From: a virus | Length of the DNA: 64,000 bases | IMG/VR virus record: IMGVR_UViG_3300045995_000108 | Location: 51,429-115,428 of that record | Strand: one strand, 5' to 3' | In this document: positions 27,981 through 63,263 of the stretch, one piece after another | Layout: each line of letters opens with the position of its first letter | How positions within the stretch are numbered: the first letter of the stretch is position 1 | Program-made: the position numbers and the translations under genes | The notes under the pieces: generated by a model | Databases searched by the model: none | Told to the model about the DNA's origin: nothing | What the model saw: the letters and a program-made list of their open reading frames with translations, nothing else

Positions 27981-30716
27981 ATTAGTTACGTAGACGGCAT
28001 TCACGATAGGGCAAAAGACATAATCCACGTTGTCGAACGTGTGAATGGTGAGCGGGTATACAAAGAGTATCCCGCTAACTATGTCTTTTACCAAGACGAC
28101 GCAAAGGGTAAGTTTCGCACTATCTTTGATACACCTGTAACCAGGTTCAGTTCAAGGTCTGGCAAAGAGTTTCAAAAGGAACTTGCCATGGCTAAGGGCT
28201 CTGGTAAGAAGGTATGGGAAAGCGACTTTAAGCCAATCTTCCGCTGCTTGGAAGAAAATTACCTCCATGCAGCATCCCCAAAGCTACACACAGCATTCTT
28301 CGACATTGAGGTGGATTTCCACCAAGAGAAAGGCTACTCTAAGCCTGAAGATCCGTTCAATGCTATTACTGCGTTCTCAATCTATCTTGACTGGTCAGAC
28401 AAGCTAATTACTTTGGTATTGCCACCTAAGTCGTATAGCTGGGAAACTGCGGAAGAGATTTGCAACAAGTTTGAAAACTGTATCCTCTTTGACAGCGAAG
28501 AAGAAATGCTTAAAACATTCTACGCTATCATCGACGATGCAGACATCTTAAGCGGCTGGAACAGTGAGGGCTTCGATATTCCGTACACTGTTATGCGTAC
28601 TATTCGCATACTGAGTAAGGACGATACTCGCGGCTTCTGCTTGTGGGGTCAACTACCCAAGCAACGTATGTTTGAACGTTATGGTACAGAGTCAATGACA
28701 TTTGATACCGTGGGCCGTGTGCACATGGACTATATGCAACTGTATCGCAAGTACACCTACGAAGAACGTCATTCCTATTCCCTAGATGCTATTGCTGAGT
28801 ATGAGTTGGGTGAGCACAAGACCCCATACGAAGGAACACTAGACCAATTGTACAATCAAGACTTTGCGAAGTTTATTGAGTACAACCGCCAAGATACCAT
28901 GTTGTTATCCAGGCTCGACACGAAGTTAAAATTCATCGACTTGGCGAACGAACTTGCACATGAAAACACTGTGCTATTACCAACCACGATGGGCGCGGTT
29001 GCAGTTACTGAGCAAGCTATCATTAACGATGCTCACAGTAGAGGTATGATTGTTCCTAACAGAAAGGCCAGAGATGAACAAGGTGAAACGCAAGCCGCAG
29101 GTGCCTATGTTGCTAATCCCAAGAAAGGGATTCACAAAGACATCGGAGCAATCGACATTAACTCCCTCTATCCCTCGGCTATTCGTGCCCTCAACATGGG
29201 ACCAGAAACAGTCGTCGGACAACTCCGCCCAATACTGACGGATGCATACTTAAAGAATAAGATGCTGCCTGAGGTTAAGAACGGCAGGACTTATGTGGGG
29301 TGCAGCCTGTCAGAAGCGTGGGAAGGTTTGTTTGGTTCCCTAGAGTACACTGCCGTTATGGACATGGACCCAAGCGTAGAGATTACGATTGACTGGGAAG
29401 CTGACGGCAACAGCACTACACACAGAGCAGACGAAGTTTGGCGTGCTGTGTTTGAAGGTGGTCAACCTTGGCTCCTATCTGCGAACGGTACTATCTTCCG
29501 TTACGACAAGAAGGGCATTGTGCCTGGTTTGTTGGAACGTTGGTACTCTGAACGTAAGGAAATGCAGGCTAAGAAGAAAGCTGCGACAGAGAAGGAAGAT
29601 ATTGCTTTCTGGGATAAGCGTCAGCTAGTTAAGAAGATTAACTTGAACAGCTTGTATGGTGCTCTACTTAACGGTGGTTGCAGGTTCTTTGACCATCGTA
29701 TTGGACAGTCTACTACGCTATGTGGTCGCGTTATTGCACGTCACATGGATGCACACGTTAACGAGGCAATCACTGGTGTTTATGATCACTTAGGTGACGC
29801 TGTAATCTACGGTGACACTGACTCTGTTTACTTCTCTGCTTGGAAGACGATTGAAGCAGATGTTAAAGCAGGCAATATGACATGGGACCGTGATACTTGT
29901 GTGCAACTGTACGACAAGATTGCAGACTCCGTTAACGACAGTTTCCCTACGTTCATGGAAAAAGCATTCCATTGCCCACTTGAGATGGGCGGCATCATCA
30001 AGGGCGGTCGTGAACTGATTGCGTCTCAAGGATTGTTCATTACCAAGAAGCGTTACGCTGTATTGATTTTCGATATGGAAGGTACACGCTACGACTTGAT
30101 GGACGAAGCAACTGCTAAGAAGAAGGGTGTTATCCCGCACACAGGTAAAGTAAAAGCTATGGGCTTGGACTTGAAGCGTTCTGACACACCTAAGATCATG
30201 CAAGAGTTCTTGATGGAAATTCTGACTGACTTGCTTACTGACAAGGGCAAAGACCTTATCATTGACAAGATCAAGACGTTCAAGCAGAAGTTTGCTGATC
30301 TTCCAGCATGGGAAAAGGGCACACCAAAGCGTGTCAATAACTTGACAAGCTATGGGCAAAAGGAAAAAGACTCTACTACTGGTAAAGCTAACATGCCAGG
30401 TCACGTTCGCGCAGCTATCAACTATAACAGACTGAAGCGTTTGTATGGTGATAATGTGTCGCAAAGTATCGTGGACGGTATGAAAACTATTGTGTGCAAG
30501 CTAAAGGATAATCCATTGGGTTATACTAGCGTGGGTTATCCAACTGACTTGGCGCACGTACCGCAGTGGTTTAAAGAGTTACCATTCGACCAAGACAAAA
30601 TGGAGATGACTATCGTGAACCAAAAGGTGGAAAACTTGTTGAGCGTACTTGACTGGGATATTACCGCAAGTACGGACATTAACAGCACCTTTGAATCATT
30701 GTTTAGTTTTGACTAA
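27981..30716 (+). CDS. 43: family B DNA polymerase with apparent AUU start
   Basis: 911 residues, replicative polymerase with 3'-5' exonuclease. Exo I FDIEVD, Exo II SGWNSEGFDIPY, Exo III YNRQDTMLL; polymerase motifs DINSLYPSAI (A), KKINLNSLYG (B) and YGDTDSVYFS (C). All catalytic acids are present. The frame is open back to 27969 and SYVDGIHDRAKDIIHVVERV precedes the first GTG (28041), which has no ribosome binding site. AGGAG (27970-27974) lies six bases before an ATT at 27981, the only sensible start. T4-like gp43 family, with the closest relatives expected in large myoviruses. Confidence 0.93.
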   Translation: MSYVDGIHDRAKDIIHVVERVNGERVYKEYPANYVFYQDDAKGKFRTIFDTPVTRFSSRSGKEFQKELAMAKGSGKKVWESDFKPIFRCLEENYLHAASPKLHTAFFDIEVDFHQEKGYSKPEDPFNAITAFSIYLDWSDKLITLVLPPKSYSWETAEEICNKFENCILFDSEEEMLKTFYAIIDDADILSGWNSEGFDIPYTVMRTIRILSKDDTRGFCLWGQLPKQRMFERYGTESMTFDTVGRVHMDYMQLYRKYTYEERHSYSLDAIAEYELGEHKTPYEGTLDQLYNQDFAKFIEYNRQDTMLLSRLDTKLKFIDLANELAHENTVLLPTTMGAVAVTEQAIINDAHSRGMIVPNRKARDEQGETQAAGAYVANPKKGIHKDIGAIDINSLYPSAIRALNMGPETVVGQLRPILTDAYLKNKMLPEVKNGRTYVGCSLSEAWEGLFGSLEYTAVMDMDPSVEITIDWEADGNSTTHRADEVWRAVFEGGQPWLLSANGTIFRYDKKGIVPGLLERWYSERKEMQAKKKAATEKEDIAFWDKRQLVKKINLNSLYGALLNGGCRFFDHRIGQSTTLCGRVIARHMDAHVNEAITGVYDHLGDAVIYGDTDSVYFSAWKTIEADVKAGNMTWDRDTCVQLYDKIADSVNDSFPTFMEKAFHCPLEMGGIIKGGRELIASQGLFITKKRYAVLIFDMEGTRYDLMDEATAKKKGVIPHTGKVKAMGLDLKRSDTPKIMQEFLMEILTDLLTDKGKDLIIDKIKTFKQKFADLPAWEKGTPKRVNNLTSYGQKEKDSTTGKANMPGHVRAAINYNRLKRLYGDNVSQSIVDGMKTIVCKLKDNPLGYTSVGYPTDLAHVPQWFKELPFDQDKMEMTIVNQKVENLLSVLDWDITASTDINSTFESLFSFD

Positions 30717-31727: not shown

Positions 31728-32468
31728 ATGCAAGATCATCTATTAGACATCGTCAAACACGCACTGCCAATCGGAATCGAATTGGTCAAGGTTACTGGAA
31801 CTAAAACTGAAACAACTATTAACAGTATTGCAGAAGACCGTTCTGTAATTGTAGAAGCTAAATTCAAAGCGCCAGTCGCTGAATTCAACGGCGTATTCGG
31901 AATGCCAAATTTGGCAAAGCTGAATACTATTTTGGGCATTCCAGAGTACGCTAAGGAAGCTAAGTTGACAATCCTTACCCGCGATGTTGACGTAGACGGT
32001 ACTACGGTTAAGCTGCCAGCTGGCGTTAACTTCACAAACAAGGCAGGCGACTTCAAGAACGACTATCGCTTCATGGGTAAGGAAGTTGTAGAAGACAAAC
32101 TGAAGGCAGTTAAATTCCGCGGTGTTAAGTGGAACGTAGAGTTTACACCAAGCGTTGCAAGCATTCAGCGTTTGCGCTACCAAGCAGCAGCCAACAACGA
32201 AATTACAACCTTTGTGGCTAAGACAGAAAAGGGCGCTTTGGTGTTCTACTTTGGTGACGCAGCATCCCACGCAGGTAACTTTACGTTCGACAACAATGTT
32301 GCTGGTACACTGTCCAAGGCATGGTCGTGGCCCGTTAACCAAGTTATTGCTATCCTTGCACTCGCAGGTGAGAAAACATTCAAGATCTCCGACGAAGGTG
32401 CTGCAATGATTACAGTTGACAGCGGCTTGATTGAATACAGCTACATCATCCCAGCCCAAACAAAATAA
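31728..32468 (+). CDS. 45: gp45-like sliding clamp
   Basis: 246 residues with the repeated strand-helix pattern of processivity clamps and phrases typical of T4-family gp45 (FNGVFGMPNLAKLNTILGI, GVKWNVEFTPSVASIQRLRYQ, VINQVIAILALAGEKTFKIS-like). A trimeric ring tethering DNA polymerase and, in T4, activating late transcription. AAGGAG-like GGAG lies six bases before the ATG. It follows the polymerase and methyltransferase in the replication block. Confidence 0.7.
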   Translation: MQDHLLDIVKHALPIGIELVKVTGTKTETTINSIAEDRSVIVEAKFKAPVAEFNGVFGMPNLAKLNTILGIPEYAKEAKLTILTRDVDVDGTTVKLPAGVNFTNKAGDFKNDYRFMGKEVVEDKLKAVKFRGVKWNVEFTPSVASIQRLRYQAAANNEITTFVAKTEKGALVFYFGDAASHAGNFTFDNNVAGTLSKAWSWPVNQVIAILALAGEKTFKISDEGAAMITVDSGLIEYSYIIPAQTK

Positions 32469-33593
32469 GTGGAGCAGTTTTTCTGTCCGTTACCTTGGAT
32501 ACATCAATTCATTCAAATTGATGGAATCAAGATGTGTTGCGTGAGTAGCACAAGTCTTAATATGACACCAGACGAGTTTAAACACTCTGATTTTATAAAA
32601 GATGTCAAAAAGACTATTACGGATGGAAAAATCCCACACGATTGCCAATCTTGTGTTAAGCAAGAACAACGTGGGGTCAAAAGTGTACGCGAAGGAATTT
32701 TAAAAGACTTTGCATATACTATTGAGACAGTCCCTGATCAAATCGAATATTTAGATTTGCGCCATTCCAATTTGTGCAATTTTTCGTGTCGTATATGCAG
32801 TCCAACATATAGTACCAGTATTAATAGAGAAGTCTTGTCTAATACGAAGCTACTTGCATATTACAGCCCAGTCGAGGTGGGTCTCAAATATGACATTGCA
32901 TCGTCAATTGATTCATTGATTCCCAATTTGTCTAGATTAAACTTAACTGGTGGTGAACCACTAATAATAAAAGAAAATCTGGACATTTTGCAACGCCTAT
33001 TGGATCAATGCCGTAATGATGTGCATTTGCTTATCACAACCAATGCCTCTACATTCAATCCCAAAATATTGAATCTCATTAAGCAGTTTAGTAATGTACA
33101 TTGGACCATAAGCATAGATGGTGTTGACGAAGTTGCTGAATACGCACGGTATGGTACTGATTGGCCTACCGTTCACGCCAATGTTCATCAGATTCTGCAA
33201 CTAAAGCATAGTGTTTCCATAAATGTGACAATCAGTGCATACAGCGTATTAGGATTAGCTGCAACTTGCAATTGGTTTAATTCGTTACGCAATGCGTACC
33301 AAAATCAACCATTAGAGATTATGTTCGGTGTGGCCACAAATGTAGACATTAAATTTCTGCCTATTCATATGCGTAAAAATGCAAAAGAAAATTTAGATCA
33401 GGCCATTGCAGTGATAAGTAATATCACAACCAATCCAGAATCTGAACTAGTTACTCTAAATAGCTTGCGTAATGATTTAAACGATGTTACAATACATAGA
33501 GCAACAACTAAATTCATTCAATTTACTCGTGACTTAGATGCATCAAGAAATCAAAGTTTCGAATCGACATTCAAATTACCTTTAGAAATATGA
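32469..33593 (+). CDS. radical SAM protein (twitch/SPASM type)
   Basis: 374 residues from GTG 32469, directly after the clamp stop. An N-terminal cysteine group (C6, C23-C24, C59, C62) may bind an auxiliary cluster; the radical SAM cluster is CNFSCRIC (C103, C107, C110). LTGGEP follows (SAM-binding glycines), then SIDGVDEVAEYARYGTDW as in peptide- and protein-modifying twitch enzymes. T4-like phages carry these of unknown substrate. GTG start is supported by the tight junction with gene 45. Confidence 0.7.
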   Translation: MEQFFCPLPWIHQFIQIDGIKMCCVSSTSLNMTPDEFKHSDFIKDVKKTITDGKIPHDCQSCVKQEQRGVKSVREGILKDFAYTIETVPDQIEYLDLRHSNLCNFSCRICSPTYSTSINREVLSNTKLLAYYSPVEVGLKYDIASSIDSLIPNLSRLNLTGGEPLIIKENLDILQRLLDQCRNDVHLLITTNASTFNPKILNLIKQFSNVHWTISIDGVDEVAEYARYGTDWPTVHANVHQILQLKHSVSINVTISAYSVLGLAATCNWFNSLRNAYQNQPLEIMFGVATNVDIKFLPIHMRKNAKENLDQAIAVISNITTNPESELVTLNSLRNDLNDVTIHRATTKFIQFTRDLDASRNQSFESTFKLPLEI

Positions 33594-34033
33594 ACCAACA
33601 AGAACGCGACACAATTGAACGCATCAAAGAGAAGGCTGTGCGCCAAATCTTTGTCACTTTCCAAAAGGAAGGCATTCATTGCTATCCTGCCGCAGCCACA
33701 GACCCAATGCTTGCGACAGGTGACCAATACGATGTCTCCTTTTTGGGCACCCCACATCGACACATTTTCCACTTCCGCGTGGACATTGATGTGTTCCATA
33801 ACGACCGCGACATTGAGTTTATTCAATTCAAGCGTTGGCTCGAAAACCTTTACAAGGATAGCATCCTTGCGTTAGACTACAAGAGTTGCGAGATGATCGC
33901 TGACGACTTGTACATTCAAATCGCTGCACGGTATCCTGATCGTGCAGTAAAAATCGAAGTATCCGAGGACGGCGAAAACGGATGCACAATCGAATACAAC
34001 ACCCACCGTCCAAGTCAATTAATTAAGGTCTAA
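33590..34033 (+). CDS. T-fold-like protein near dpdA
   Basis: 147 residues. HRHIFHFRVDIDVFH, DIEFIQFKRWLENLY and CEMIADDLYIQI then IEVSEDG...TIEY resemble the strand-helix order of QueD/pterin synthases (T-fold), with histidines at the metal position, but identity is weak. If real, it could be a second QueD-like enzyme such as the predicted 7-carboxy-7-deazaguanine decarboxylase DpdL. ATGA overlap with the radical SAM gene. Confidence 0.4.
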   Translation: MNQQERDTIERIKEKAVRQIFVTFQKEGIHCYPAAATDPMLATGDQYDVSFLGTPHRHIFHFRVDIDVFHNDRDIEFIQFKRWLENLYKDSILALDYKSCEMIADDLYIQIAARYPDRAVKIEVSEDGENGCTIEYNTHRPSQLIKV

Positions 34034-34034
34034 A

Positions 34035-34292
34035 ATGGCAAAAGAACAATACATGCAAAGTCCCCGTGTACGTCAGGAAATGACTCGTCTCTTCGACGAG
34101 CTTGATGCATACTTGGAGTTCTGCAAAAAGCAGGGCTATGTATTTGACGAGTCCCATCTCTACAACGAGAAGACTCCATGGGGTGAGTGGCAACGTGTCC
34201 TGAACGGGAAGTTTCCCAAGGACAACTGGTCTCCTTACCCTAAGGAAAAGCGTGACTTTTCCAAGCCGCGTTCGCATTTCTCCACTCGTTAA
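34035..34292 (+). CDS. hypothetical protein (85 aa)
   Basis: Between the T-fold protein and dpdA. A helical first half (EMTRLFDELDAYLEFCKKQGY) and a proline/basic second half with many aromatics (WGEWQ, NWSPYPKEKRDF). Unknown; gene order suggests association with the deazaguanine genes. Confidence 0.5.
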   Translation: MAKEQYMQSPRVRQEMTRLFDELDAYLEFCKKQGYVFDESHLYNEKTPWGEWQRVLNGKFPKDNWSPYPKEKRDFSKPRSHFSTR

Positions 34293-34298
34293 TCCTTT

Positions 34299-35933
34299 AT
34301 GCCATATAAAGACGATTTAACGGCGAAGCAAAGCGACTACGCCTACTTTCTACCAGCGTTAAGCGGATTTTATTCCTCTTACGTTGGCAAGCAAAGACAT
34401 GAACAGCACGTAGATGCTGCCCGTATTCCTAAGCGATTTGAAAATGGCATTGAGGGATTAAACTATCTCAATGAAGAAGAAGCTTACTTCAAGTATAAGT
34501 GGTCTCTGTATTCTGCAGGACACGCTAACTTGGATACCACTAAGTTTGATCCGTCTGAGGACATGATTCGCAATCGTTCTAAGAATAGCTTTGTACTTGG
34601 TGACTCTGGTGGATTCCAGATTGCCAAGGGAGTATGGGAAGGCGACTGGCGTGCTAACTCTGGTTGTGCAAAAGCTCAAAAGTATCGCACACAGGTTCTT
34701 GATTGGATGGAAAGCTACATGGACTACGGCATGGGATTAGATATTCCAGGCTGGGTTTGGCGTACCCCAAGGGGTGTGGCTGCAACCAAGATTGAAACTT
34801 ACCAAGAAGCTATGGAAGCTTCCAAGTACAACTTCGAATATTGGATTAAACATCGTCGCGGTAACTGCAAGTTCTTGACAGTTCTGCAAGGTGATAATCA
34901 CGAGCAGGCAGATGAGTGGTATGAGGAGATGAAGAAGTTCTCCGATCCTAAGCATTACCCTAACGAGCACTTTAACGGTTGGGCTATGGGATCGCAAAAC
35001 AAATGCGATGTACACCTTATCTTGAAACGCCTTGTTGCATTGATTTATGATGGATTGTTGGAAGAAGGCAAGCAAGACTGGATTCACTATCTTGGTACAT
35101 CCAAGCTAGAGTGGGCAGTTATGTTTACCGATATTCAACGTGCTATCCGGAAGAACCACAACCCAAGTCTAAGCATTAGCTTTGACTGCGCATCTCCTTT
35201 CCTGGCAACAGCGAACGGGCAAGTGTATTGGGACAACCGTCTTGAAGACGAAGACAAGTGGTCTTACCGTATGATGAAATGTGTGGATGATAAGAAGTAT
35301 GCACTAGATACTCGCATGTTCCGTGATGTGGCAGTCAATGATGGGCATTTCCCATCGTTCATTGACAGTCCAATCATCTCGCGTATGGAAATCAATGATG
35401 TATGTCATTACGGACCAAACGATGTAAACAAGATTGGTAAGATTGGCCGTACGTCGTGGGATAGTTTTGCTTATGCATTGCTGATGGGGCACAACGTCTA
35501 TGCACACATTAAGTCTGTACAAGACAGCAATGAGCGTTACGACCAAGGCATTGTTCCTGAAATGCTGATACACGACATGAAGATGAAGGGTGCGTTTAGA
35601 CAACTCGTCGACGCAATCTTTTCTGCACCGTCCCGTGCTGCCGCTGATAAGTTGGTTAACGAAGAAAGCAATTGGTACTTACAGATTACTGGATCAAGTG
35701 CAAACGGCTTGCTAGGTAAGAAAGCTGTCAATGCAGATACGATGACAGCAAAACACATGGTGATCGAAGGTACCATCCACGATAAGGTTAAGGTTGAAAA
35801 AGTAAAATTCAAACCTGTCGTGATGTCTAACTTGTTCGAGGGTGAAGGCGTGGCAGAATTTGTCCCGCATGTTGACGATTCAGAAATTGACGAAGCACCA
35901 CTTGATGACTTGGAGAAAGCAGATGAGCTGTAA
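34299..35933 (+). CDS. dpdA: DpdA-type DNA 7-deazaguanine transglycosylase
   Basis: 544 residues with a tRNA-guanine-transglycosylase-like barrel: GDSGGFQ (D102 at the TGT base-binding position), VLQGDN (195-200), FNGWAMGSQ, HYLGTS (263-268) and SFDCASP with the likely nucleophile D296. The TGT zinc-binding cysteine set is not obvious, as in phage DpdA enzymes. DpdA swaps guanine in DNA for a 7-deazaguanine base, protecting phage DNA from restriction. FolE, QueD and QueE in the window can make the base. Overlaps the next gene by 11 bases. Confidence 0.85.
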   Translation: MPYKDDLTAKQSDYAYFLPALSGFYSSYVGKQRHEQHVDAARIPKRFENGIEGLNYLNEEEAYFKYKWSLYSAGHANLDTTKFDPSEDMIRNRSKNSFVLGDSGGFQIAKGVWEGDWRANSGCAKAQKYRTQVLDWMESYMDYGMGLDIPGWVWRTPRGVAATKIETYQEAMEASKYNFEYWIKHRRGNCKFLTVLQGDNHEQADEWYEEMKKFSDPKHYPNEHFNGWAMGSQNKCDVHLILKRLVALIYDGLLEEGKQDWIHYLGTSKLEWAVMFTDIQRAIRKNHNPSLSISFDCASPFLATANGQVYWDNRLEDEDKWSYRMMKCVDDKKYALDTRMFRDVAVNDGHFPSFIDSPIISRMEINDVCHYGPNDVNKIGKIGRTSWDSFAYALLMGHNVYAHIKSVQDSNERYDQGIVPEMLIHDMKMKGAFRQLVDAIFSAPSRAAADKLVNEESNWYLQITGSSANGLLGKKAVNADTMTAKHMVIEGTIHDKVKVEKVKFKPVVMSNLFEGEGVAEFVPHVDDSEIDEAPLDDLEKADEL

Positions 35934-36987
35934 AACTATTTACATCGTGCCAATCGAACCAATCGACGCACGGTACACAAAGCAATGGTACGAGAATATT
36001 CCCAAGATCATTCTTGAAGAAGCGAACAAACGCGACGTACCAATTAAGCTAGTTACTATTGATGGTGCTAAGATTGAGGCTGGCACAACCAGTGGAGCCT
36101 TCCTTGATTTTGGGGCCACCAATGTGTACAAGGCATCGCAATGCGAAGTCGTGTCGCGTATGTTTAGCAGTGGTATTGTCAAGGCTGGTGACAAGTTTCT
36201 TATCACTGATGCGTGGAACTTTATCATCACACCTATCAAGTACATGAGCGACTTGCTTGGTATTCCTGTTGAGATTCACGGCATATGGCATGCCGGTGCA
36301 TACGATCCTTCTGACATCCTTGGATACAAGATGCAAAAGCCGTGGCCCAACCATGCTGAACGCTCGTGGTTCCACTCTTGCGACTATAACTACTACGCAA
36401 CGGACTTCCACAAGGATATGTTCCTGCGTAACTTGGGTATTGAGCCAGAGTATCATCACAAGGCGATTCGTTCTGGACAACCGCATACACCAATCATTGA
36501 ACAATGCAGTCAATATTGGCACACATACAAGACTGGAAAGATGATCTGGCCGCATCGTTATAACGACGACAAGCAACCTGCCATTGCTGAGTCTATTGCG
36601 GAAGTTATCCCCACTGTTATTACACAGAAGATGAACCTGTCCAAAGAGGCTTATTACGAGGAGTTAGGCAAGGCTTCCGTACTATTTTCGTGCAGTTTGC
36701 ATGAGAATCTAGGCATTTCCATCATGGAAGGTGTGTTAGCTGGTGTAATCCCCTTCTTGCCTGATCGCTGCTCTTATTCAGAAATGTATCTCCCAGAGTT
36801 CCTGTATCCATCAGAATGGACCAAAGACTTTGCATCTTTTGAGAAGCATCGTCCATTGTTGCTTCGCTTTATCAATCATCGAATCAATGATCGCTATAAC
36901 TACATGGATGCACTGGAACGCCAACGCGACATTCTCATTGAGAAGTACCTGCAACCAACTGTAATGGTAGACAAGTTGCTTGGCTAA
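35923..36987 (+). CDS. glycosyltransferase, queuosine-mannosyltransferase-like
   Basis: 354 residues from ATG 35923, overlapping the dpdA end by 11 bases. GT-B pattern: IYIVPIEPIDARYTKQWY, ITDAWNFI, then IWPHRYNDDKQP (208-219) and SLHENLGISIMEG (258-270), PFLPDRCSYSEMYLPEF. The H-R-x-x-x-D-K and H-E-x-x-G-I-x-x-x-E segments match the DUF3524/GTDC1 family that mannosylates queuosine in tRNA from GDP-mannose. Close coupling to dpdA and the epimerase at 37772 suggests it glycosylates the deazaguanine in DNA, or another GDP-sugar acceptor. Acceptor unproven. Confidence 0.65.
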   Translation: MSCKTIYIVPIEPIDARYTKQWYENIPKIILEEANKRDVPIKLVTIDGAKIEAGTTSGAFLDFGATNVYKASQCEVVSRMFSSGIVKAGDKFLITDAWNFIITPIKYMSDLLGIPVEIHGIWHAGAYDPSDILGYKMQKPWPNHAERSWFHSCDYNYYATDFHKDMFLRNLGIEPEYHHKAIRSGQPHTPIIEQCSQYWHTYKTGKMIWPHRYNDDKQPAIAESIAEVIPTVITQKMNLSKEAYYEELGKASVLFSCSLHENLGISIMEGVLAGVIPFLPDRCSYSEMYLPEFLYPSEWTKDFASFEKHRPLLLRFINHRINDRYNYMDALERQRDILIEKYLQPTVMVDKLLG

Positions 36988-37201
36988 TGTAGATCAAGTT
37001 TGGTGCGATATGTGCAGGCCGCTTTATCCTTGGTTAGAGGACAAGCGGCTTTTGGATCAACGCGACATTCTAATGCAGCTATACGAAGCTTGCACTGCAC
37101 GTGGTCAAGAAATGTACCAAAGCGAAGGCATGGACATTTATCTAGAATACTTAACTTGGTGGAAACTACAATATGTCCTTCGACCTAATCCTAAAGTTTG
37201 A
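36980..37201 (+). CDS. hypothetical protein (73 aa)
   Basis: Begins with TTG overlapping the previous stop, or at ATG 37010; no good binding site supports either. Contains WCDMCRPLYPWLEDKR and a helical middle. Overlaps the next gene by 29 bases. Function unknown. Confidence 0.5.
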   Translation: MANVDQVWCDMCRPLYPWLEDKRLLDQRDILMQLYEACTARGQEMYQSEGMDIYLEYLTWWKLQYVLRPNPKV

Positions 37202-37775
37202 AAAAGAGTTAGCAGAGTTTACTGGCGCTCCGTATGCAATTATGACAGATTGCTGCACACACGCCATTGAACTGTGTCTTCGTTACGAACTACAAGATCG
37301 TCGCTACATAGACAAGGTTGTGTTTACTGCGTTTACATACTTGTCCGTGCCAATGACCTTCCGCAAGATAGGCATTAAGTACGAGCACATTGACTACGAT
37401 TGGACTGGCGAGTATCCGTTCTATGGCACACGTATTTGGGACTCTGCTCGTAGGTTAGAGAAAAACATGTACCGCCCACACTCCTTCCAATGTCTGAGCT
37501 TTGGACAAGGTAAGCCAATCCAGATTGGGCATGGTGGTGCTATCCTAACTGACGATAAGAATGCGTACACCACTATGCTTGCACAACGGTACGACGGTAG
37601 AGACCTAACCATATCCCCATGGCACGACCAAAAGGTGTTTAGGGTCGGCTACCATTACAAGCCAGCAATTGAAGACGCAATGCATGGTTCGGAATTGCTT
37701 AAAGCTTATGCTTGCTATCCAGCTAAACCAATGCATGTGATATATCCAGATTTAAGAAAGATAACAATATTATGA
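37173..37775 (+). CDS. short DegT/DnrJ/EryC1-like protein
   Basis: 200 residues against ~370 for the family. It keeps the N-terminal AELAEFTGAPYAIMTDCCTHAIELCL pattern and the PLP-lysine region SFGQGKPIQIGHGGAI (lysine in place), but much of the aminotransferase C-lobe is gone. It may act on sugar nucleotides with the neighbouring epimerase, bind PLP without transaminating, or be degenerate. Frame is intact. Confidence 0.6.
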   Translation: MSFDLILKFEKELAEFTGAPYAIMTDCCTHAIELCLRYELQDRRYIDKVVFTAFTYLSVPMTFRKIGIKYEHIDYDWTGEYPFYGTRIWDSARRLEKNMYRPHSFQCLSFGQGKPIQIGHGGAILTDDKNAYTTMLAQRYDGRDLTISPWHDQKVFRVGYHYKPAIEDAMHGSELLKAYACYPAKPMHVIYPDLRKITIL

Positions 37776-38722
37776 ACATTTTAGTATTAGGCGCGGGTGG
37801 GTTCATTGGATCGCATTTAGTAAAAAGACTCAAAAGTGAAGGTCATTATGTCGTCGGTATGGACTTAAAATATCCTGATTTTGACACAACTCACGCAGAC
37901 GAGTTTATTATCACTGACTTGGCAGATGCAAGATCTCTTGTGTTCCCATACCTTGAGTTTGATGAGGTGTACCAACTTGCTGCTGACATGGGCGGAGCGA
38001 CCTACATATTCACAGGGATAAATGATTCGAACATTATGATGCATAGTGTTCGTATAAATTTAAATGTGCTTGACCACTTTAAGGACACAAAAGCAACAAT
38101 CTTCTATTCGTCATCTGCCTGCATTTACCCAGCACATAACCAGCTTGACCCGTCAGATCCTAATTTGGAAGAGTCTTCTGCATACCCAGCCAATCCAGAT
38201 TCTGAATACGGATGGGAAAAACTATTCTCTGAACGGCTGTATCTTGCACATGCAAAAAACCACGGGACTAAGGTTCGTATTGCACGTTACCACAATGTTT
38301 ATGGCCCATATGGCACGTTCGAAGGTGGTAAAGAAAAGGCACCTGCTGCAATATGCCGCAAAGTAATTCAATCCAACGGTGAGATTGAGATCATTGGTCC
38401 AGGATATCAAACACGTTCGTTTTTGTATATTGACGATTGCGTTGATGCAACGATTCAATTAGTACGTAGTGATGTTAACTTTCCTATTAACATCGGATCA
38501 GAAGAAATGGTATCAATCAACCAATTGGTGGACATTGCATCTGCGGTAGAAGGAAAGCAATTGATTAAAAAGCATGTATCTGGACCAGTTGGTGTCGCTG
38601 GCCGCAATTCTGACAATACGTTAATTGAACATTACTTAGGTTGGGAAAGAAAGAATACGTTGTCAGACGGTATCACCAAAACATACAAATGGATTAAATC
38701 CGTCATTGACTCCCGCGTCTAA
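37772..38722 (+). CDS. GDP-mannose 3,5-epimerase-like
   Basis: 316 residues, NAD-dependent SDR. GAGGFIG (7-13) binds NAD; catalytic set SSSACIYP plus YGWEK (YxxxK). Long stretches (AADMGGATYIF, GTFEGGKEKAPAAICRK, QTRSFLYIDDCV, INIGSEEMVSINQLV, GVAGRNSDNTLI) are diagnostic of plant-type GDP-mannose 3,5-epimerases, which make GDP-L-galactose or GDP-L-gulose. This supplies a GDP-sugar to a glycosyltransferase. Its 3' end contains the -35 of the folE promoter. Confidence 0.8.
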   Translation: MNILVLGAGGFIGSHLVKRLKSEGHYVVGMDLKYPDFDTTHADEFIITDLADARSLVFPYLEFDEVYQLAADMGGATYIFTGINDSNIMMHSVRINLNVLDHFKDTKATIFYSSSACIYPAHNQLDPSDPNLEESSAYPANPDSEYGWEKLFSERLYLAHAKNHGTKVRIARYHNVYGPYGTFEGGKEKAPAAICRKVIQSNGEIEIIGPGYQTRSFLYIDDCVDATIQLVRSDVNFPINIGSEEMVSINQLVDIASAVEGKQLIKKHVSGPVGVAGRNSDNTLIEHYLGWERKNTLSDGITKTYKWIKSVIDSRV

Positions 38723-38752: not shown

Positions 38753-39451
38753 ATGGATAACAGTAAAAATCTTTCTCAATTAATCCGCCGCAAAATGCAA
38801 GGAAGTGGTAAACGCTTTTGGGCAGGCGACAACATTTCTGAATTCGTTAGCGAAGATGCAAAACAACTTCTGATTGACGAAGCTGCTGAAGCATTCGAAG
38901 GAGTGCTGGACGCTTTGTTAATTGATCGGGAGAATGATCCTAACAGCAAAGGCACTGCTCGTCGTCTTGCCAAAATGTACTACAACGAGATCATGTCTGG
39001 TCGTTACGATGCACCACCAGACTGCACTGCTTTCCCAAATGACAGCGATGACCGTTATGAAGGAATGTTGGTTGTTCGTTCAGAATTGAAGTCAATGTGC
39101 TCACACCACCACCAGCCCGTTTCTGGCACTGCGTACATTGGTATCATTGCTGCGCAAAAGCTAATTGGCTTGTCCAAGTATTCACGCATCGCGCAGTGGT
39201 GCGCATTGCGCGGCACATTGCAAGAAGAGTTATGCAACGACATCGCAAAAGAAATTGAAAAGGCAACTGGTTCTGAGAACATTGCAGTTTACATACAGGC
39301 CACACATGGATGCTGCGAAAACCGTGGAATAATGGCCCATTCGTCCCTAACACAAACAACTGTGCTCAAAGGATCATTTAAAAGCGACCCAGGCACTAAG
39401 AAAGAGTTTTTCGACAACATTAATCTACAGCAACAGTTCGCTCCACGATAA
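38753..39451 (+). CDS. folE: GTP cyclohydrolase I (FolE)
   Basis: 232 residues. The type I core has RSELKSMCSHHHQPV with zinc ligands C116 and H119, and HGCCENRG carrying the third ligand C187. QKLIGLSKYSRI matches the active-site loop. It makes dihydroneopterin triphosphate, the first compound of 7-deazaguanine (and folate) synthesis. An acidic insert between the helical N-terminus and the core is longer than in E. coli. It has its own promoter, so expression can be separate from dpdA. Confidence 0.9.
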   Translation: MDNSKNLSQLIRRKMQGSGKRFWAGDNISEFVSEDAKQLLIDEAAEAFEGVLDALLIDRENDPNSKGTARRLAKMYYNEIMSGRYDAPPDCTAFPNDSDDRYEGMLVVRSELKSMCSHHHQPVSGTAYIGIIAAQKLIGLSKYSRIAQWCALRGTLQEELCNDIAKEIEKATGSENIAVYIQATHGCCENRGIMAHSSLTQTTVLKGSFKSDPGTKKEFFDNINLQQQFAPR

Positions 39452-39517: not shown

Positions 39518-40759
39518 ATGCGTAAATTAGGTCTTGCACTCGCCATTGCTGCTAGTGCATTTTTGGTGGCTTGTGGTGGGGGTGGAGGCGGTGGCAGTCC
39601 TGCAGCCGTGGCACCAACGCCAGTTTCAGTAACGTACAAAGCGTCTGACTGGAATGCAACAATTGCGTGGTGGGACGATTCGACAAATTCTGGGCAGACT
39701 GATGCCTTTGTTAAAGGGATGATTGACAACATTCTGGCAACGGGTTACAGTGGTGTTACATTTTCCTACAAAAACCCAATTGATATGTCGACTGGGCATG
39801 TGCCAGCTTTTGCCACTACAATGGCAAACAACACGCGAATGTTCGCAATGATGGACTATGCGTATTCAAAAGGGCTCAAGGTCAATATCAAAGAATATTG
39901 GACAATGCCTGACAACAGCAACGTCAACCAGTGGAGTGCAAACGATGCCGCAAATTGGTACGATAGTGCAACACCCAATGCGACAAAACCTTATGCCACT
40001 ACATTGCTGGCAGACATGGACACACATTTCACAGCACTTGCAAGCGTTGCACAAGCGCACCACGTGTCAATGATTATCATGGGGTCAGAAAATGACTTCC
40101 TCGCATATAACCAATATCACGCGAATTGGGCAAGTATGGTCTCGCACTTACGTGGCAATGGGTTCACAGGCAAGCTTACTTACGATGCAATTTGGCAAGG
40201 CAAGCAAGGCGAGGCTTTTTACAGTGTCACAGTTTGGGACTTGATGGACAAAGTTTGCTTGTCATTCTTCCCTGACTTCTCTGGTATGCCGCTTACAAAT
40301 GTACAGGATGTTGTTGCACGATGGTCTAGCGTTAACCTTGCGCAAGTTACAAGCCCCTACGCTGACTTGAATGACCCAAATACCCCATTCCCTAGCTATG
40401 TCGCTGAACTACTTGCCATTAGCCAAACTTGGCAAAACAAGGAAATTGTATTTGGTGAAAATGCATACGAGAATTCAGCTACTGCGCTGATGAACTGGAA
40501 CAGTGTGACTCAACTAGTTGCTGGCGGTGTGCAACACGATCCAGTGCAACGTCAATTGGCATTTGAAGCAGAACTGATTGTTCTAAAGACTCCAGTAGCG
40601 CAAGGCGGACTGAAAGGCGTAGTGACAGGCTTTAACTTGATGGGTTACGATCCTTGGGAATACGGTCCAGGACCAATGGCTGTATGGAAAGACTGGGAGC
40701 AACTGACGGGTACTACATCAGAAGCTACTCTTAAGACATATTTGCAAGCTGGACTCTAA
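39518..40759 (+). CDS. lipoprotein glycoside hydrolase, GH113-like
   Basis: 413 residues. Lipoprotein signal peptide with LVAC (C19), then a poly-Gly spacer of the type common in Burkholderiales lipoproteins. The mature part looks like a (beta/alpha)8 barrel: YSGVTFSYKNP, MMDYAYSKGLKVNIKEYW, SMIIMGSEND (Glu on a strand end, candidate acid/base) and EIVFGENAYEN (candidate nucleophile). The strand/Glu order resembles GH113 beta-mannanases; identity is low. It would sit on the host envelope. Own promoter with a dyad. Confidence 0.5.
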   Translation: MRKLGLALAIAASAFLVACGGGGGGGSPAAVAPTPVSVTYKASDWNATIAWWDDSTNSGQTDAFVKGMIDNILATGYSGVTFSYKNPIDMSTGHVPAFATTMANNTRMFAMMDYAYSKGLKVNIKEYWTMPDNSNVNQWSANDAANWYDSATPNATKPYATTLLADMDTHFTALASVAQAHHVSMIIMGSENDFLAYNQYHANWASMVSHLRGNGFTGKLTYDAIWQGKQGEAFYSVTVWDLMDKVCLSFFPDFSGMPLTNVQDVVARWSSVNLAQVTSPYADLNDPNTPFPSYVAELLAISQTWQNKEIVFGENAYENSATALMNWNSVTQLVAGGVQHDPVQRQLAFEAELIVLKTPVAQGGLKGVVTGFNLMGYDPWEYGPGPMAVWKDWEQLTGTTSEATLKTYLQAGL

Positions 40760-41167: not shown

Positions 41168-41569
41168 GTGACTCGCATAAACTCTAATCTTGACCCAAAA
41201 TCTCTCAAGCGTATGCATTTGGTTGCAGAGCTGCGAGAGATCACAATGGTCCCGGCTGCACTACGCCGTTCTTTGCGCACTATACAACCGCAAACCATCA
41301 AACAGAGTATTCCCAAGCAGTTTACTTTGAACGCAGGCCACGTTAAATTCTTTTACGATAAACTTGGATTCTTGCAAAAACGGTTCAACCGTTTAGCAGA
41401 TGAAATGGTGCGCAGAGGTTATTCCCCTGATCGCAGTCGCATCAAAGCATTTGACGGATTTGACAGAATGTGGTATAATGATTGGGATAGCACAGACACT
41501 GATGACAAAATTGTTGTAGAACGCATTAACTTCCGTATCTCACAAAAACCACATTTATACAAGGATTAA
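41168..41569 (+). CDS. denV: endonuclease V-like pyrimidine dimer glycosylase
   Basis: 133 residues (T4 DenV 138). MTRIN with Thr2 as N-terminal nucleophile after Met removal, then VAELREI giving the catalytic E24 (T4 E23), and LNAGHVKFFYDKLGFLQKR matching T4 DenV closely. It removes UV dimers and cuts the abasic site. GTG start; AGGT precedes it. Confidence 0.9.
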   Translation: MTRINSNLDPKSLKRMHLVAELREITMVPAALRRSLRTIQPQTIKQSIPKQFTLNAGHVKFFYDKLGFLQKRFNRLADEMVRRGYSPDRSRIKAFDGFDRMWYNDWDSTDTDDKIVVERINFRISQKPHLYKD

Positions 41570-41570
41570 C

Positions 41571-42068
41571 ATGACACCCGTTTCTTACAAATTCACTTCC
41601 ACAAAAGAATACATTGACGCTTTCCCATGTGCATATCGCCAATGGCGATCTGACTCGCACTGCAACCTGATTCACGGCTACTCGTTTAGCATGAAGTTCT
41701 ACTTTGGCACAAACGACCTCGACGCACGTAACTGGGCAGCTGACTACGGTGGACTAAAAGAGCTTAAGAAGATTTTGGAATCGCAATTTGACCATACTCT
41801 CATCGTGGCGCAAGATGATCCAGATATGGAAACATTCAAGTTGCTGCAAGACAAAGGCATGGCTAAGATTGTTGTGCTGCCTGCACTTGGTTGTGAAGCA
41901 CTTGCTGACATGCTGTACAAGTATGTGAACGGTGTTTACATTCCGGAAATGTGGGGAGAAGGTGAAGCAAAGCGTCTTTGGTGCTACAAAGTGGAAGTTC
42001 GCGAGACACAAGCTAATATGGCTTATCGTGAGGGTCACCGTGAGTGGAACGAGGACTTGCTTGCATAA
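41571..42068 (+). CDS. queD: 6-carboxytetrahydropterin synthase (QueD)
   Basis: 165 residues. FPCAYRQWRSDSHCNLIHGYSF carries the histidines/cysteine of the zinc and substrate site (HGY where E. coli has HGH), then AADYGGLKELKK, FDHTLIV and the C-terminal VEVRETQANMAY (catalytic/binding Glu). This clade converts dihydroneopterin triphosphate to the QueE substrate. With FolE and QueE it forms the 7-deazaguanine pathway. Starts one base after the denV stop; TAATG to the next gene. Confidence 0.8.
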   Translation: MTPVSYKFTSTKEYIDAFPCAYRQWRSDSHCNLIHGYSFSMKFYFGTNDLDARNWAADYGGLKELKKILESQFDHTLIVAQDDPDMETFKLLQDKGMAKIVVLPALGCEALADMLYKYVNGVYIPEMWGEGEAKRLWCYKVEVRETQANMAYREGHREWNEDLLA

Positions 42069-43130: not shown

Positions 43131-44012
43131 ATTTTTGGAACTAATGAAATTATCGGCAAGAAATTTTTCCGGGACGCACCAGCAAACAGCTTGTTTGTGA
43201 CAAGTATGTTCTTCACGTTGCAAGGTGAAGGTCCATACGCTGGTATGCCTGCGTTATTCATCCGTCTTGCAAAGTGCAACCTTGATTGCAGCTTCTGTGA
43301 CACATTCTTTGACGATGGCGATTGGATGACGTTTGACGAGATCGACGAGAAAGTGATTGAAACCATTTCCCGTTACTGGACTGATAAAAACGAAGAAGTG
43401 CCAGACTGGGCAATTAGCCACAAAACATTCGGCCCAGTACATCCTGGTGTTGTGCTTGTTATGACTGGTGGTGAACCATTACTCCAAGAAAACATCTCCC
43501 TGTTTATGACTGGTATGTTGCCAATCTTCAAAGCTGTGCAAGTCGAAAGCAACGGCATTCCTGACACCGTAGTACCAGCTGGCGTTACGCTGGTCTGTTC
43601 ACCCAAGTGTATGGAAAAGAACGGTGTTGCTACTAAGTATTTCTCGCCATCCAAAACTATTTTGGACCGTGCAGACTGTCTCAAGTTTGTAATGAGCGCA
43701 GATGAAGGCAGTCCTTACCACAGTGTACCAGAATGGGCACACGAGTGGAAAGAACGGACCGGCAAAGATATCTATTGCAGCCCGATGAACATTTACAATT
43801 CTTTCCCGCAGCAAATCAAATTGCTACGAGCAGAGAAGGGTGTTATTACGATGGCAGAGCGTTCCACAGTTGACGAGGTCATCTCGTGGTGGGAACCGGG
43901 ATTGCTTGACATGGCAAAGAACGAAGCGAACCATCGTTATGTTGGGCAATACTGTATGCAGCATGGATTCAAGATGCAGATGCAGATGCACTTGTTTGCG
44001 AGTTTAGCATAA
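43131..44012 (+). CDS. queE: 7-carboxy-7-deazaguanine synthase (QueE), AUU start
   Basis: 293 residues. Radical SAM cluster CNLDCSFC (C49, C53, C56), TGGEP, and the QueE N-terminus FGTNEIIGKKFF then SLFVTSMFFTLQGEGPYAG. The conserved N-terminus lies upstream of the first TTG/ATG, so translation starts at ATT 43131; AAGGAG (43118-43123) is seven bases before it. No ATG, GTG or TTG is present at that place. It makes CDG from the QueD product. Together with DpdA this gives the base for DNA insertion; no QueC is seen here. Confidence 0.9.
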   Translation: MFGTNEIIGKKFFRDAPANSLFVTSMFFTLQGEGPYAGMPALFIRLAKCNLDCSFCDTFFDDGDWMTFDEIDEKVIETISRYWTDKNEEVPDWAISHKTFGPVHPGVVLVMTGGEPLLQENISLFMTGMLPIFKAVQVESNGIPDTVVPAGVTLVCSPKCMEKNGVATKYFSPSKTILDRADCLKFVMSADEGSPYHSVPEWAHEWKERTGKDIYCSPMNIYNSFPQQIKLLRAEKGVITMAERSTVDEVISWWEPGLLDMAKNEANHRYVGQYCMQHGFKMQMQMHLFASLA

Positions 44013-50436: not shown

Positions 50437-50785
50437 CCCGCAGCTAGAGTGGATTAAAACATTCATGGCATCGTTAGTGGATTGCCCCCTAACGTTACAG
50501 CAGGGCAGAGTGCATTGGTGGGTCAATCCGTCAAACCACAATAGTCTAAGGCTGGCGGGCAAGGCTTATATGTGGTTAAAGAAGTACACACAGATTCCGC
50601 ATTGGCAGATTCCAATTAACGCTGACATTTCAAGCAAGCAAGTGATACAGTTAGAGCGAGTATTTAAGAGTCCGTATTACTTGCATAACTCGTTAAACAT
50701 AACTTTGCTGGGTGAGGAAGATGTCGTCATGCTGCAACTACATGCAGGGGATCTGGGCACGTACCTAAACAATTTACAACAATGA
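50417..50785 (+). CDS. hypothetical protein (122 aa)
   Basis: Starts at GTG 50417, overlapping the previous gene by 20 bases; the next in-frame ATG is 50465 and would lose HDPQLEWIKTF. WVNPSNHNSLRLAGKAYMWLKKYT and a C-terminal LLGEEDVVMLQLHAGDLGTYL. Unknown. Start uncertain. Confidence 0.5.
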   Translation: MTKSIHDPQLEWIKTFMASLVDCPLTLQQGRVHWWVNPSNHNSLRLAGKAYMWLKKYTQIPHWQIPINADISSKQVIQLERVFKSPYYLHNSLNITLLGEEDVVMLQLHAGDLGTYLNNLQQ

Positions 50786-51927
50786 CACAATTTACAAGTA
50801 GAATAATTCCTCTAGTAGACGTAAACAATCCCGCATACAAAAACAGAACTCCACTCACAAGGGCAGACGTTCCTAAAGAGCATCAATGGAATTTTGTTCA
50901 GCGTAAGATGAATTTTGAAAAGGATCTTGGCTTACAAGGTCTCTACTGTTTTCACCCCTTCAACACGATAACGGTTGACCAACTTGGCGATGTGTATATG
51001 TGCACTTGCCAAGCAGACTTACCTATACCTGTTGGTAAGATATGGGACTTTGAATCGTTGGATGACATAGGGCGTTCGCCTATTGCACGTGAGTTGCAGG
51101 CAAGCATATTGGATGGTACATACAAGTATTGTAACGGCGACAACTGCGGTCTCATTCGTGGCAAGGTATTGAGTCCTGTAATCAGTCACAAGCCAGACAC
51201 TATTAACTGGATAAATTTTGCGCTTGATGCCAGCTGCAATTTAACTTGCCCGTCGTGTCGCAAAGAGTTTATCTTCCTTAACGAAGGACCAGAGTATGAT
51301 CTACGCATACGCATGGTCAACCATCTTGTTAAACTCATTGAGAAACACAACCATTGGATTAAGTTCTCCATAAGCAATGATGGCGATCCGTTTGCATCAT
51401 TAGTCTATCGCGACTTGCTGTCTAAGCTAAAAATTAAAGGCATGCCTGTTGAAATAGAGATTGTTACTAACGGCATCCTTGCCAAAGCTCACTGGCACAA
51501 GATGGAGGGTATTCACTCTAACGTCGTTGGCTTTAAGGTCAGCATGGATGCAGGTACTCCTGAAACGTATGCAGTAACACGTCGTGGTGGTTCGTGGGAC
51601 AAACTCATTGAGAGCATCAAGTTCATTGCTCAGTGGAAGAAGGATAACAACTCACAAATGGAACTCACTGCGAGCTTTGTTGTGCAGAATGCTAACTACA
51701 AGGACATGGTTGCTTACGTTGAGCTGTGCGACTCGTTGGGCTTTGACCACATCAACATGTCACGCATACAGAACTGGGGTACGTTTGACAACTTTGCGCA
51801 AGAAGCAGTGTGGGACGAAAACCATATAAACTATACAGACTTTTTAACGTGCCTCAATGACCCAGTGCTCAAAAATCCCAAAGTAAATCTAACAAATTTG
51901 ATTGATTTGACAGACAAATCCATTTAA
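50782..51927 (+). CDS. radical SAM protein with SPASM-like N-terminal Cys
   Basis: 381 residues. CFHPFNTITVDQLGDVYMCTCQ (auxiliary cysteines) precedes the cluster CNLTCPSC (C152, C156, C159). FSISNDGDPFAS, EIVTNGIL and SMDAGTPETYAVTRRGG follow the radical SAM order. Substrate unknown. T4-like phages and SPASM enzymes modify peptides or sugars. ATGA overlap. Confidence 0.7.
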   Translation: MTQFTSRIIPLVDVNNPAYKNRTPLTRADVPKEHQWNFVQRKMNFEKDLGLQGLYCFHPFNTITVDQLGDVYMCTCQADLPIPVGKIWDFESLDDIGRSPIARELQASILDGTYKYCNGDNCGLIRGKVLSPVISHKPDTINWINFALDASCNLTCPSCRKEFIFLNEGPEYDLRIRMVNHLVKLIEKHNHWIKFSISNDGDPFASLVYRDLLSKLKIKGMPVEIEIVTNGILAKAHWHKMEGIHSNVVGFKVSMDAGTPETYAVTRRGGSWDKLIESIKFIAQWKKDNNSQMELTASFVVQNANYKDMVAYVELCDSLGFDHINMSRIQNWGTFDNFAQEAVWDENHINYTDFLTCLNDPVLKNPKVNLTNLIDLTDKSI

Positions 51928-61395: not shown

Positions 61396-62364
61396 ATGAA
61401 ATTTTTAGTAACAGGCGGTGCCGGCTTTATCGGGCACAATGTAGTAAGACAACTAGAAGAGATGGGACACGATTGTGCAATCATTGACTCGTGTACAAAC
61501 TATAACTTCGTTCCGCAAGCGGAAATGGATTACTTGGTCGAGGCACGTTGCAAACGCATTAGTGCAGGGGTTGACTATGTTGACCTCCGCGAATATGATT
61601 CAGTAGCAGAGAGTCTTAGGCTTGCGCAACCAGAGACAGTCATTCACCTTGCATCCTTTCCTCGACAAAAGGTAGTAGGCGAACAGCCTGTATGGGCGTC
61701 TGAAGTAATGTGCTGTGCCCTTGTCAACTTGCTGGAAGAGTGCACCAAGAACAACGTCAAGCGTTTTGTGTACATTAGCTCAAGCATGGTATACGGCGAC
61801 TTTGCAAATGACGTCACCGAGGCTGCGGATTGCAACCCCCAAGGCTTGTACGGCATCATGAAGTACATGGGCGAACATATCGTTAAGGATTATGCAAAGC
61901 GTACTGGGATGGAATATGTAATCATTCGTCCAAGTGCAGTGTACGGTGAATGGGACGTAGAAGATCGTGTCGTCTCTAAGTTCATGCTTAACGCTATGCG
62001 TGGTGGCATTCTTAAGGTAAACGGACCAGACGAGGTATTAGACTTCTCTTACGTAGAAGAAACTGCGATGGGCATTGTGCTTGCTGCTACTCAACAATCT
62101 GCATCCAATAACATCTTTAACATCACACGCTCTGACACTAAGCTGTACACGTTGCTGGATGCAGCGAGTATTGCTATCAAAATTGCAGGCAAGGGAACTG
62201 GCATTGCAGGTGCCCGTGACCTCAACTTCCCTAAGCGTGGACGGTTGAACATTGACAAGGCACGTACACTGCTTGGTTACAATCCAAGGATCAGTGTAGA
62301 GGAAGGGTTCCAACGCTATCACGATTGGTTCAAGAACGATCCATATTGGAGCAAGACCATATAA
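61396..62364 (+). CDS. NAD-dependent epimerase/dehydratase
   Basis: 322 residues, extended SDR: GGAGFIGHN (NAD site), VYISSSMVYG and YGIMK (YxxxK). C-terminal half for sugar-nucleotide binding (RPSAVYGEWDVEDR). Probably epimerises or dehydrates a nucleotide sugar; substrate unclear. Forms a group with the radical SAM and DegT genes that follow. Confidence 0.8.
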   Translation: MKFLVTGGAGFIGHNVVRQLEEMGHDCAIIDSCTNYNFVPQAEMDYLVEARCKRISAGVDYVDLREYDSVAESLRLAQPETVIHLASFPRQKVVGEQPVWASEVMCCALVNLLEECTKNNVKRFVYISSSMVYGDFANDVTEAADCNPQGLYGIMKYMGEHIVKDYAKRTGMEYVIIRPSAVYGEWDVEDRVVSKFMLNAMRGGILKVNGPDEVLDFSYVEETAMGIVLAATQQSASNNIFNITRSDTKLYTLLDAASIAIKIAGKGTGIAGARDLNFPKRGRLNIDKARTLLGYNPRISVEEGFQRYHDWFKNDPYWSKTI

Positions 62365-63263
62365 TGTCGTTCGCAAAAGAGAACACCAAAGTATTGCACT
62401 TAGAGTTAACTACTCGATGCAATGCTTCTTGCCCACAGTGTTCTCGCATGGACCCATCAACTAAATACACTGAAGACTATGACCTCACTTTAGACAGAAT
62501 TAAAGAACTGTTTTCTGAGGACTTCGTGCGACAGTTAGACAAGGTGTTTGCATGTGGTGACTTTGGTGATCCCGCTGCTGCAAAAAACTGTTTACCTATA
62601 CTCGAGTGGTTCAGGGAAGTAAATCCTGATATAACGTTAGGCATGAACACTAACGGCGGAATACGTAACACTGTATTTTGGACTGCGCTGGGACAGCTAC
62701 TAAACAAGCCATCAGACTACGTTGTATTCAGCATTGACGGGCTTGAGGACACCAATCACATCTACCGGGTCAACGTGCAGTGGAAACAAGTTATGTCCGC
62801 CGCTAAAGCGTTTATAAGTGCCGGCGGCTCTGCGCATTGGGATATGCTAGTATACGAGCATAACGAGCACCAAGTAGAAGAGTGCAAGAAGCTGGCAAAA
62901 GACATGGGGTTTACATGGTTTAGATGCAAGGTTAGCTCTAGATTTGCTACAAAACCCGTGCAATTCCTGAACCCACCCAAGAGCTACGCACCAGTGCACA
63001 GCGACGGCCCGGTTAAATGTCATGCACTGGAAGAGAAAAGTTTGTATGTTGCGGCAACAGGCAAACTCATGCCTTGCTGCTTTATGGGGCACAAGGTGTT
63101 TACTCTTACTGAGCCATTGAAAGGATTCCTTGACGATCCTGATTTTAAATCCATTTCAGAAGCATTAGCGACCACACCGCTTACAGTATGTAAAGAGTAC
63201 TGTAGCACCAACAACAATGTTAATCGGTTAAACAATCAATTTAGAGAGAATACACGACTATGA
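62364..63263 (+). CDS. radical SAM protein (SPASM type)
   Basis: 299 residues from ATG 62364. Cluster CNASCPQC (C19, C23, C26); CHALEEKSLYVAATGKLMPCCFMGH carries SPASM-like cysteines; FSIDGLEDTNHIYR. Located in a sugar-gene cluster (epimerase before, DegT after). Possible role: modifying a sugar or peptide. TAATG and ATGA junctions. Confidence 0.7.
   Translation: MSFAKENTKVLHLELTTRCNASCPQCSRMDPSTKYTEDYDLTLDRIKELFSEDFVRQLDKVFACGDFGDPAAAKNCLPILEWFREVNPDITLGMNTNGGIRNTVFWTALGQLLNKPSDYVVFSIDGLEDTNHIYRVNVQWKQVMSAAKAFISAGGSAHWDMLVYEHNEHQVEECKKLAKDMGFTWFRCKVSSRFATKPVQFLNPPKSYAPVHSDGPVKCHALEEKSLYVAATGKLMPCCFMGHKVFTLTEPLKGFLDDPDFKSISEALATTPLTVCKEYCSTNNNVNRLNNQFRENTRL

Follow-up and report, generated by a model that had tools for sequence, protein, structure and literature searches.

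What does a glycosyltransferase do when its gene overlaps that of a base-exchange enzyme of the deazaguanine type? The question is raised by a 64,000-nucleotide stretch of viral DNA (the window; bases 51429-115428 of the 115,428-base IMG/VR virus contig IMGVR_UViG_3300045995_000108), in which a gene for a 544-amino-acid (aa) DpdA-like enzyme with the fold of tRNA-guanine transglycosylases (TGTs) (positions 34299-35933, + strand) is followed by a gene for a 354-aa glycosyltransferase (GT) of the GT4 family (35923-36987, + strand). The original prediction for this locus, made from the letters and their open reading frames (ORFs), had placed an 11-base overlap between the two genes, and both ends of the GT gene and the overlap ATGAGCTGTAA (35923-35933, + strand), which holds the dpdA stop and the GT ATG start, were indeed found at these positions. 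With a probability of roughly 0.7, we propose that the two genes belong to a phage DNA hypermodification module in which DpdA places a 7-deazaguanine in DNA and the GT adds a sugar to this base, probably one of the mannose family.

The strongest evidence of the analysis came from the genomic linkage of GT and DpdA. Searches with nothing but the GT recovered 19 phage records, 66 viral loci, and 26 prokaryote-genome loci, which were partly redundant (41 GTs left at 90% identity). By clustering of neighboring genes, 82 of 95 GT loci held a DpdA homologue, 71 held FolE, and 70 held the family of a small partner protein encoded upstream of dpdA in the window. The GT-DpdA distance had a median of 892 bp in the 81 cases measured, and the two genes were on the same strand in 79 of these. 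Several GT loci without DpdA stop at a contig edge; in Sinorhizobium phage Phosso, the GT is accompanied by FolE and QueE, and dpdA lies about 172 kb away. In the reverse search, made with DpdA alone, GT was present in 63 of the best 80 loci kept and in all 29 of the DpdA loci having at least 5 kb upstream and at least 7 kb downstream; low-scoring GTs in DpdA loci retained an EPxxxRYT-type start. The pairing is thus near-obligate.

This reciprocity bears on an alternative in which the GT decorates virion proteins or a host surface glycan and lies beside dpdA by chance, the downstream epimerase and DegT-like protein belonging to a glycan pathway. Phage glycan clusters often contain GT4 enzymes and GDP-sugar genes, and the window encodes a further nucleotide-diphosphate (NDP)-sugar short-chain dehydrogenase/reductase (SDR) at 61396-62364; however, the GT-DpdA pairing recurs across phages that are not related and also in bacteria, the nearest relative of the GT is a deazaguanine glycosyltransferase and not one of the glycan GT4 enzymes, and a distant GT4 of PhiXhv-12 lies unlinked in a different context. 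We regard glycan decoration as very improbable, and the tie to the deazaguanine pathway preferred from the outset is upheld by the genome linkage.

Among phages, the pairing was seen in the Arenbergviridae (PAC2 and PA5oct), ACP17, and X1. The cassette was also found in alphaproteobacterial chromosomes, on contigs as long as 1 Mb from isolates of Magnetospirillum, Sulfitobacter, Shimia, Devosia, Methylobacterium, Azospirillum, and Aurantimonas, where it additionally holds QueD or a queuosine-precursor-transporter-like protein. Certain records labeled as archaeal or other metagenome-assembled genomes contain polymerase and clamp genes; they are probably phage contigs. PADLOC gave no match on the bacterial GT-DpdA cassettes. 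In a Rhodobacterales locus (L087, 7492-12315; also L091, L093, and L094), a queuosine-precursor-transporter-like protein, GT, and DpdA stand with a co-directional 585-aa protein that has no family match, and a MASE1 histidine kinase lies alongside; this cassette is possibly a bacterial DNA-modification or defense system. In 48 of 95 loci (e.g., L011, 12103-12600), a phosphoribosyltransferase (PF00156) accompanies the GT; it may have a role in purine or deazaguanine salvage.

The GT had been likened to QTMAN (GTDC1; PF12038 plus a GT4 domain), which adds mannose to queuosine in tRNA-Asp (PMC12518689). Both segments to which the likeness had been traced were present, as HRYNDDK (residues 211-217) and HENLGISIME (260-269), and H211, R212, D216, K217, H260, E261, G264, and E269 were invariant among 32 homologues. 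The Pfam family Glycos_transf_1 was matched weakly by the window GT (E 0.065), yet by 24 of 24 aligned homologues (best 7e-12). Structure prediction, which had been suggested as a check, gave a GT-B/GT4 fold: the AlphaFold model built from the 32 homologues (predicted local distance difference test [pLDDT] 89, predicted template modeling score [pTM] 0.87) matched BshA, SenB, and other retaining GT-B/GT4 enzymes in a PDB fold search (E ~1e-8). A designed protein found by a single-sequence PDB search with the GT was spurious.

Kinship to QTMAN was assessed with QTMAN homologues collected via PF12038 within one bacterial phylum (that of the Neomarinimicrobiota carrier of L076) and with generic GT4 enzymes as controls, among which one listed gene, L156, turned out itself to encode QTMAN. 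The profile of the phage GT family scored 34 to 70 bits on 28 of 28 QTMAN proteins, whereas the generic GT4 controls reached about 10 bits at most. By hhalign, the GT family and QTMAN were aligned over 263 columns with a probability of 98.9 (single template, E-value uncorrected), and 28 columns spread along the full length were conserved in both, including P13, W22, D96, H163, G185, H211-R212, K217, G264, E269, R282, Y285, and E287. In a maximum-likelihood tree, for which the program issued a long-branch warning, the phage and bacterial GTs formed one clade (support 98/98), the QTMAN proteins formed another (100/99), and the pair stood apart from other GT4 enzymes (86/86). The separate clade puts the GT outside the QTMAN clade, and the joining of the two indicates that the GT family is sister to QTMAN and no part of it; judged by profile and tree, the kinship is specific and well beyond chance. 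A hidden Markov model comparison to QTMAN had been set beforehand as the test that could refute the assignment, and its outcome was divided, PF12038 being silent and the phage-family profile hitting the 28 QTMAN proteins. A PF12038 match as the sole criterion of kinship was dropped as negative in favor of the profile scores and the tree, in both of which GT4 enzymes served as controls. What stood of the assignment is that QTMAN was the closest of the glycosyltransferases tested; what did not is membership in the family itself. The two enzymes also resemble each other in having a TGT-type base-exchange partner, whereas the phage GT differs in being encoded beside DpdA and in its predicted DNA target.

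No Pfam, PHROG, or NCBIfam match was obtained for the 544-aa ORF at 34299-35933, and its identification as a DpdA-like enzyme was carried instead by the fold: with an AlphaFold model of pLDDT 85, 50 of the 50 top PDB matches listed were TGTs (E ~1e-6). Residues D102 (in DSGGFQ), D148, and D296 (in FDCASP) were conserved across 35 homologues with TGT-like spacing, and the CxCxxC zinc motif of tRNA TGTs was kept in none of the 35. The model thus depicts a TGT-fold enzyme with both catalytic aspartates, unlike tRNA TGT in the zinc motif. A DpdA sought as a DpdA2 reference was not found in the phi-Grn1 region examined.

These features point both ways on whether the DpdA-like enzyme and the GT act on tRNA, as a phage mannosyl-queuosine-like system that tunes translation. 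The TGT fold and the QTMAN kinship both indicate known tRNA enzymes, and the DSGGFQ motif is the same as in tRNA TGT, but the absence of the zinc motif speaks against action on tRNA, and a normal TGT was already present in five of five bacterial carriers checked. Moreover, the GT and DpdA genes are located in a replication context, among those of a DNA polymerase (28041-30716, + strand; 48 to 50% to the annotated polymerases of PAC2 and Phosso) and a sliding-clamp homologue (31728-32468, + strand; matching the annotated clamps of Phosso and PAC2), and in other phages that encode DpdA and the preQ0 enzymes, the bases are in the DNA (PMC6884629). We consider action on tRNA unlikely.

Downstream of the GT, a short DegT protein and a GDP-mannose 3,5-epimerase had been named, and both were borne out. 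The epimerase-like SDR (37772-38722, + strand) had GDP-mannose-3,5-epimerases as its best solved relatives (E 2e-85; PDB entries 8sg0 and 2c59, E ~1e-84), with the next family at 5e-24, and it retains the catalytic Cys/Tyr/Lys/Lys motifs (SSACIYP, EYGWEK, and GGKEKAPA), on which grounds we describe it as GDP-mannose-3,5-epimerase-like. It shares the catalytic motifs and its best PDB matches with the plant enzyme GME and differs from it in being phage-encoded, its product being predicted. The mini-DegT protein (37173-37775, + strand; 200 aa), a pyridoxal phosphate (PLP) aminotransferase-like protein (PF01041, E 5e-15), lacks the C-terminal domain and retains the PLP lysine in SFGQGK, which is invariant in the phage homologues; it recurs beside dpdA in nine loci. 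The L-galactose or L-gulose type of sugar suggested at first is no more than a candidate, since relatives of the GT carry other sugar genes in place of the epimerase. In many of them, a nucleotidyltransferase fused to a mannose-6-phosphate-isomerase (PMI)-type cupin lies directly upstream of the GT, and other GT loci hold a UDP-glucose/GDP-mannose dehydrogenase, an SDR epimerase, or a PurT-like ATP-grasp protein. At least one mannose or NDP-sugar gene was found in 51 of the 80 DpdA loci, 45 of the 51 being among the 63 GT-bearing loci. This variation in sugar genes around the GT favors a mannose-family nucleotide sugar as the putative donor, with interchangeable tailoring.

The precursor genes of the window encode FolE, GTP cyclohydrolase I (38753-39451, + strand; PF01227, E 3e-38), and, 3 to 5 kb downstream of the epimerase and FolE group, QueD, 6-carboxytetrahydropterin synthase (41571-42068, + strand; PF01242, E 4e-15; 54% to ACP17 QueD), and QueE, 7-carboxy-7-deazaguanine synthase (43191-44012, + strand; identity segments of 52 to 68% to Phosso QueE and 42% to ACP17 QueE, with a Radical_SAM match). 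Together, FolE, QueD, and QueE yield 7-carboxy-7-deazaguanine (PMC13329287). The small partner protein (hyp147; PHROG 17812, E 3e-37; 33590-34033, + strand) belongs to a family that is the second near-universal companion of the GT and is present in most DpdA loci; its motifs H-x-H, SCEM, and ED were conserved in an alignment of 27 homologues. The family also occurs in phages without the GT, such as Cellulophaga phage phiST, where it stands beside QueD-QueE-FolE. Its match to the PTPS/QueD profile was weak (hhalign probability 11, E 0.003, single template), and the protein is possibly a T-fold enzyme of the deazaguanine pathway.

In the module that we propose, FolE, QueD, and QueE would produce 7-carboxy-7-deazaguanine, which may be processed further, either by the host or by the small partner protein. 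The DpdA-like enzyme would then swap guanine in phage DNA for the deazaguanine, and the GT would attach a sugar to it, the likeliest nucleotide-sugar donor being GDP-mannose or one of its derivatives. The donor would be altered here by the GDP-mannose-3,5-epimerase, in which the mini-DegT protein may take part, and in other phages by the products of alternative sugar genes. The bulky sugar-bearing base would be expected to block restriction and other DNA-targeting defenses. The order of the last two steps may be the reverse: were the GT to act on the free deazaguanine base or nucleotide, DpdA would insert a base already glycosylated. The gene pairing fits this order equally well, and cassettes with a precursor transporter handle free bases; on the other side, QTMAN is described as modifying queuosine already in tRNA (PMC12518689; PMC12313893), and a TGT pocket would presumably have to accommodate the sugar. 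We hold insertion of a preglycosylated base to be quite unlikely and prefer glycosylation after exchange.

Several results weigh against glycosylation of a deazaguanine in DNA. With E <= 1 as the limit, QTMAN_N (PF12038) matched nothing in the window genome, nor did it match any of 24 GT homologues. On the side of the exchange enzyme, hhalign of the DpdA-like family with phage 9g DpdA aligned the FDCASP region alone, and comparison with five bacterial TGTs gave motif fragments only; kinship to proven DNA-modifying DpdA therefore comes from fold and motifs, hence the term "DpdA-like." As for the acceptor, the preQ0 pathway of the window genome is incomplete: the contig gave no QueC over the cut-off, and the same held for 22 of 22 GT-bearing records, four of which are phage isolate genomes, so that the later steps would be host-supplied or the carboxy base used directly. 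We know of no phage that encodes the late steps of queuosine synthesis, and with QueC missing as well, the queuosine diol, which is the acceptor of QTMAN, should be absent; if only FolE, QueD, and QueE are present, the phage GT would use another acceptor. 7-Carboxy-7-deazaguanine itself offers only a carboxylate as the acceptor atom's group. A 2023 study by Cui reportedly added four phage deazaguanines and proposed a carboxy-deazaguanine decarboxylase, DpdL; were hyp147 to be DpdL, the acceptor question would be harder still, the product being plain 7-deazaguanine without a group at C7.

Known systems offer partial parallels to the proposed DNA module. Phages 9g, CAjan, nt-1, and HVTV-1 likewise encode FolE, QueD, and QueE with a TGT-fold enzyme, although the 9g cluster, unlike the window phage, has QueC and no annotated glycosyltransferase. 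Deazaguanines measured in phage DNA in 2019 were dPreQ0, dADG, dG+, and dPreQ1, all sugar-free, and dQ was not detected (PMC6884629). Glucosylation of hydroxymethylcytosine by the T4 alpha- and beta-glucosyltransferases also places a sugar on a modified base of phage DNA, but the base and the route are other ones (base exchange in DNA versus replacement of the deoxynucleoside triphosphate), and the likeness drawn is a functional one. To our knowledge, the 7-deazaguanine bases of DNA described so far bear small groups only, and no paper describing glycosylated deazaguanine DNA turned up in a literature search that did not take in key 2023 work on phage deazaguanines. A deazaguanine system has been recognized in PA5oct (PMC7824862); the PA5oct and Paride papers hold nothing on DNA modification.

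If the proposal is right, sugar-bearing 7-deaza bases would add a new class to the known kinds of hypermodified DNA, for which phages would have recruited a relative of the tRNA-queuosine glycosyltransferase; it would account for deazaguanine genes alongside the GT in jumbo phages such as PA5oct and Paride and would bear on phage evasion of restriction and CRISPR. GT carriers such as Paride, PA5oct, ACP17, X1, and Phosso are in culture, which puts the prediction within direct reach of mass spectrometry. We lean, by somewhat more than even odds, toward a still wider version, in which a QTMAN-sister GT obligately paired with a TGT-fold enzyme defines a widespread phage and bacterial class that places interchangeable sugars on a 7-deazaguanine derived from 7-carboxy-7-deazaguanine in DNA, and in which the alphaproteobacterial cassette may serve self-marking or defense.

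Other genes of the window were noted around the module. An 85-aa protein (34035-34292, + strand) encoded between the small partner and DpdA recurs in about 13 loci by neighbor clustering. Between folE and queD lies an ORF for a secreted lipoprotein-like protein (39518-40759; lipobox LVAC) without a Pfam match, and directly upstream of queD is a pyrimidine dimer DNA glycosylase of the T4 endonuclease V type (41168-41569; PF03013). Three twitch/SPASM-like radical SAM proteins are encoded in the phage genome, at 32469-33593, 50782-51927, and 62325-63263.

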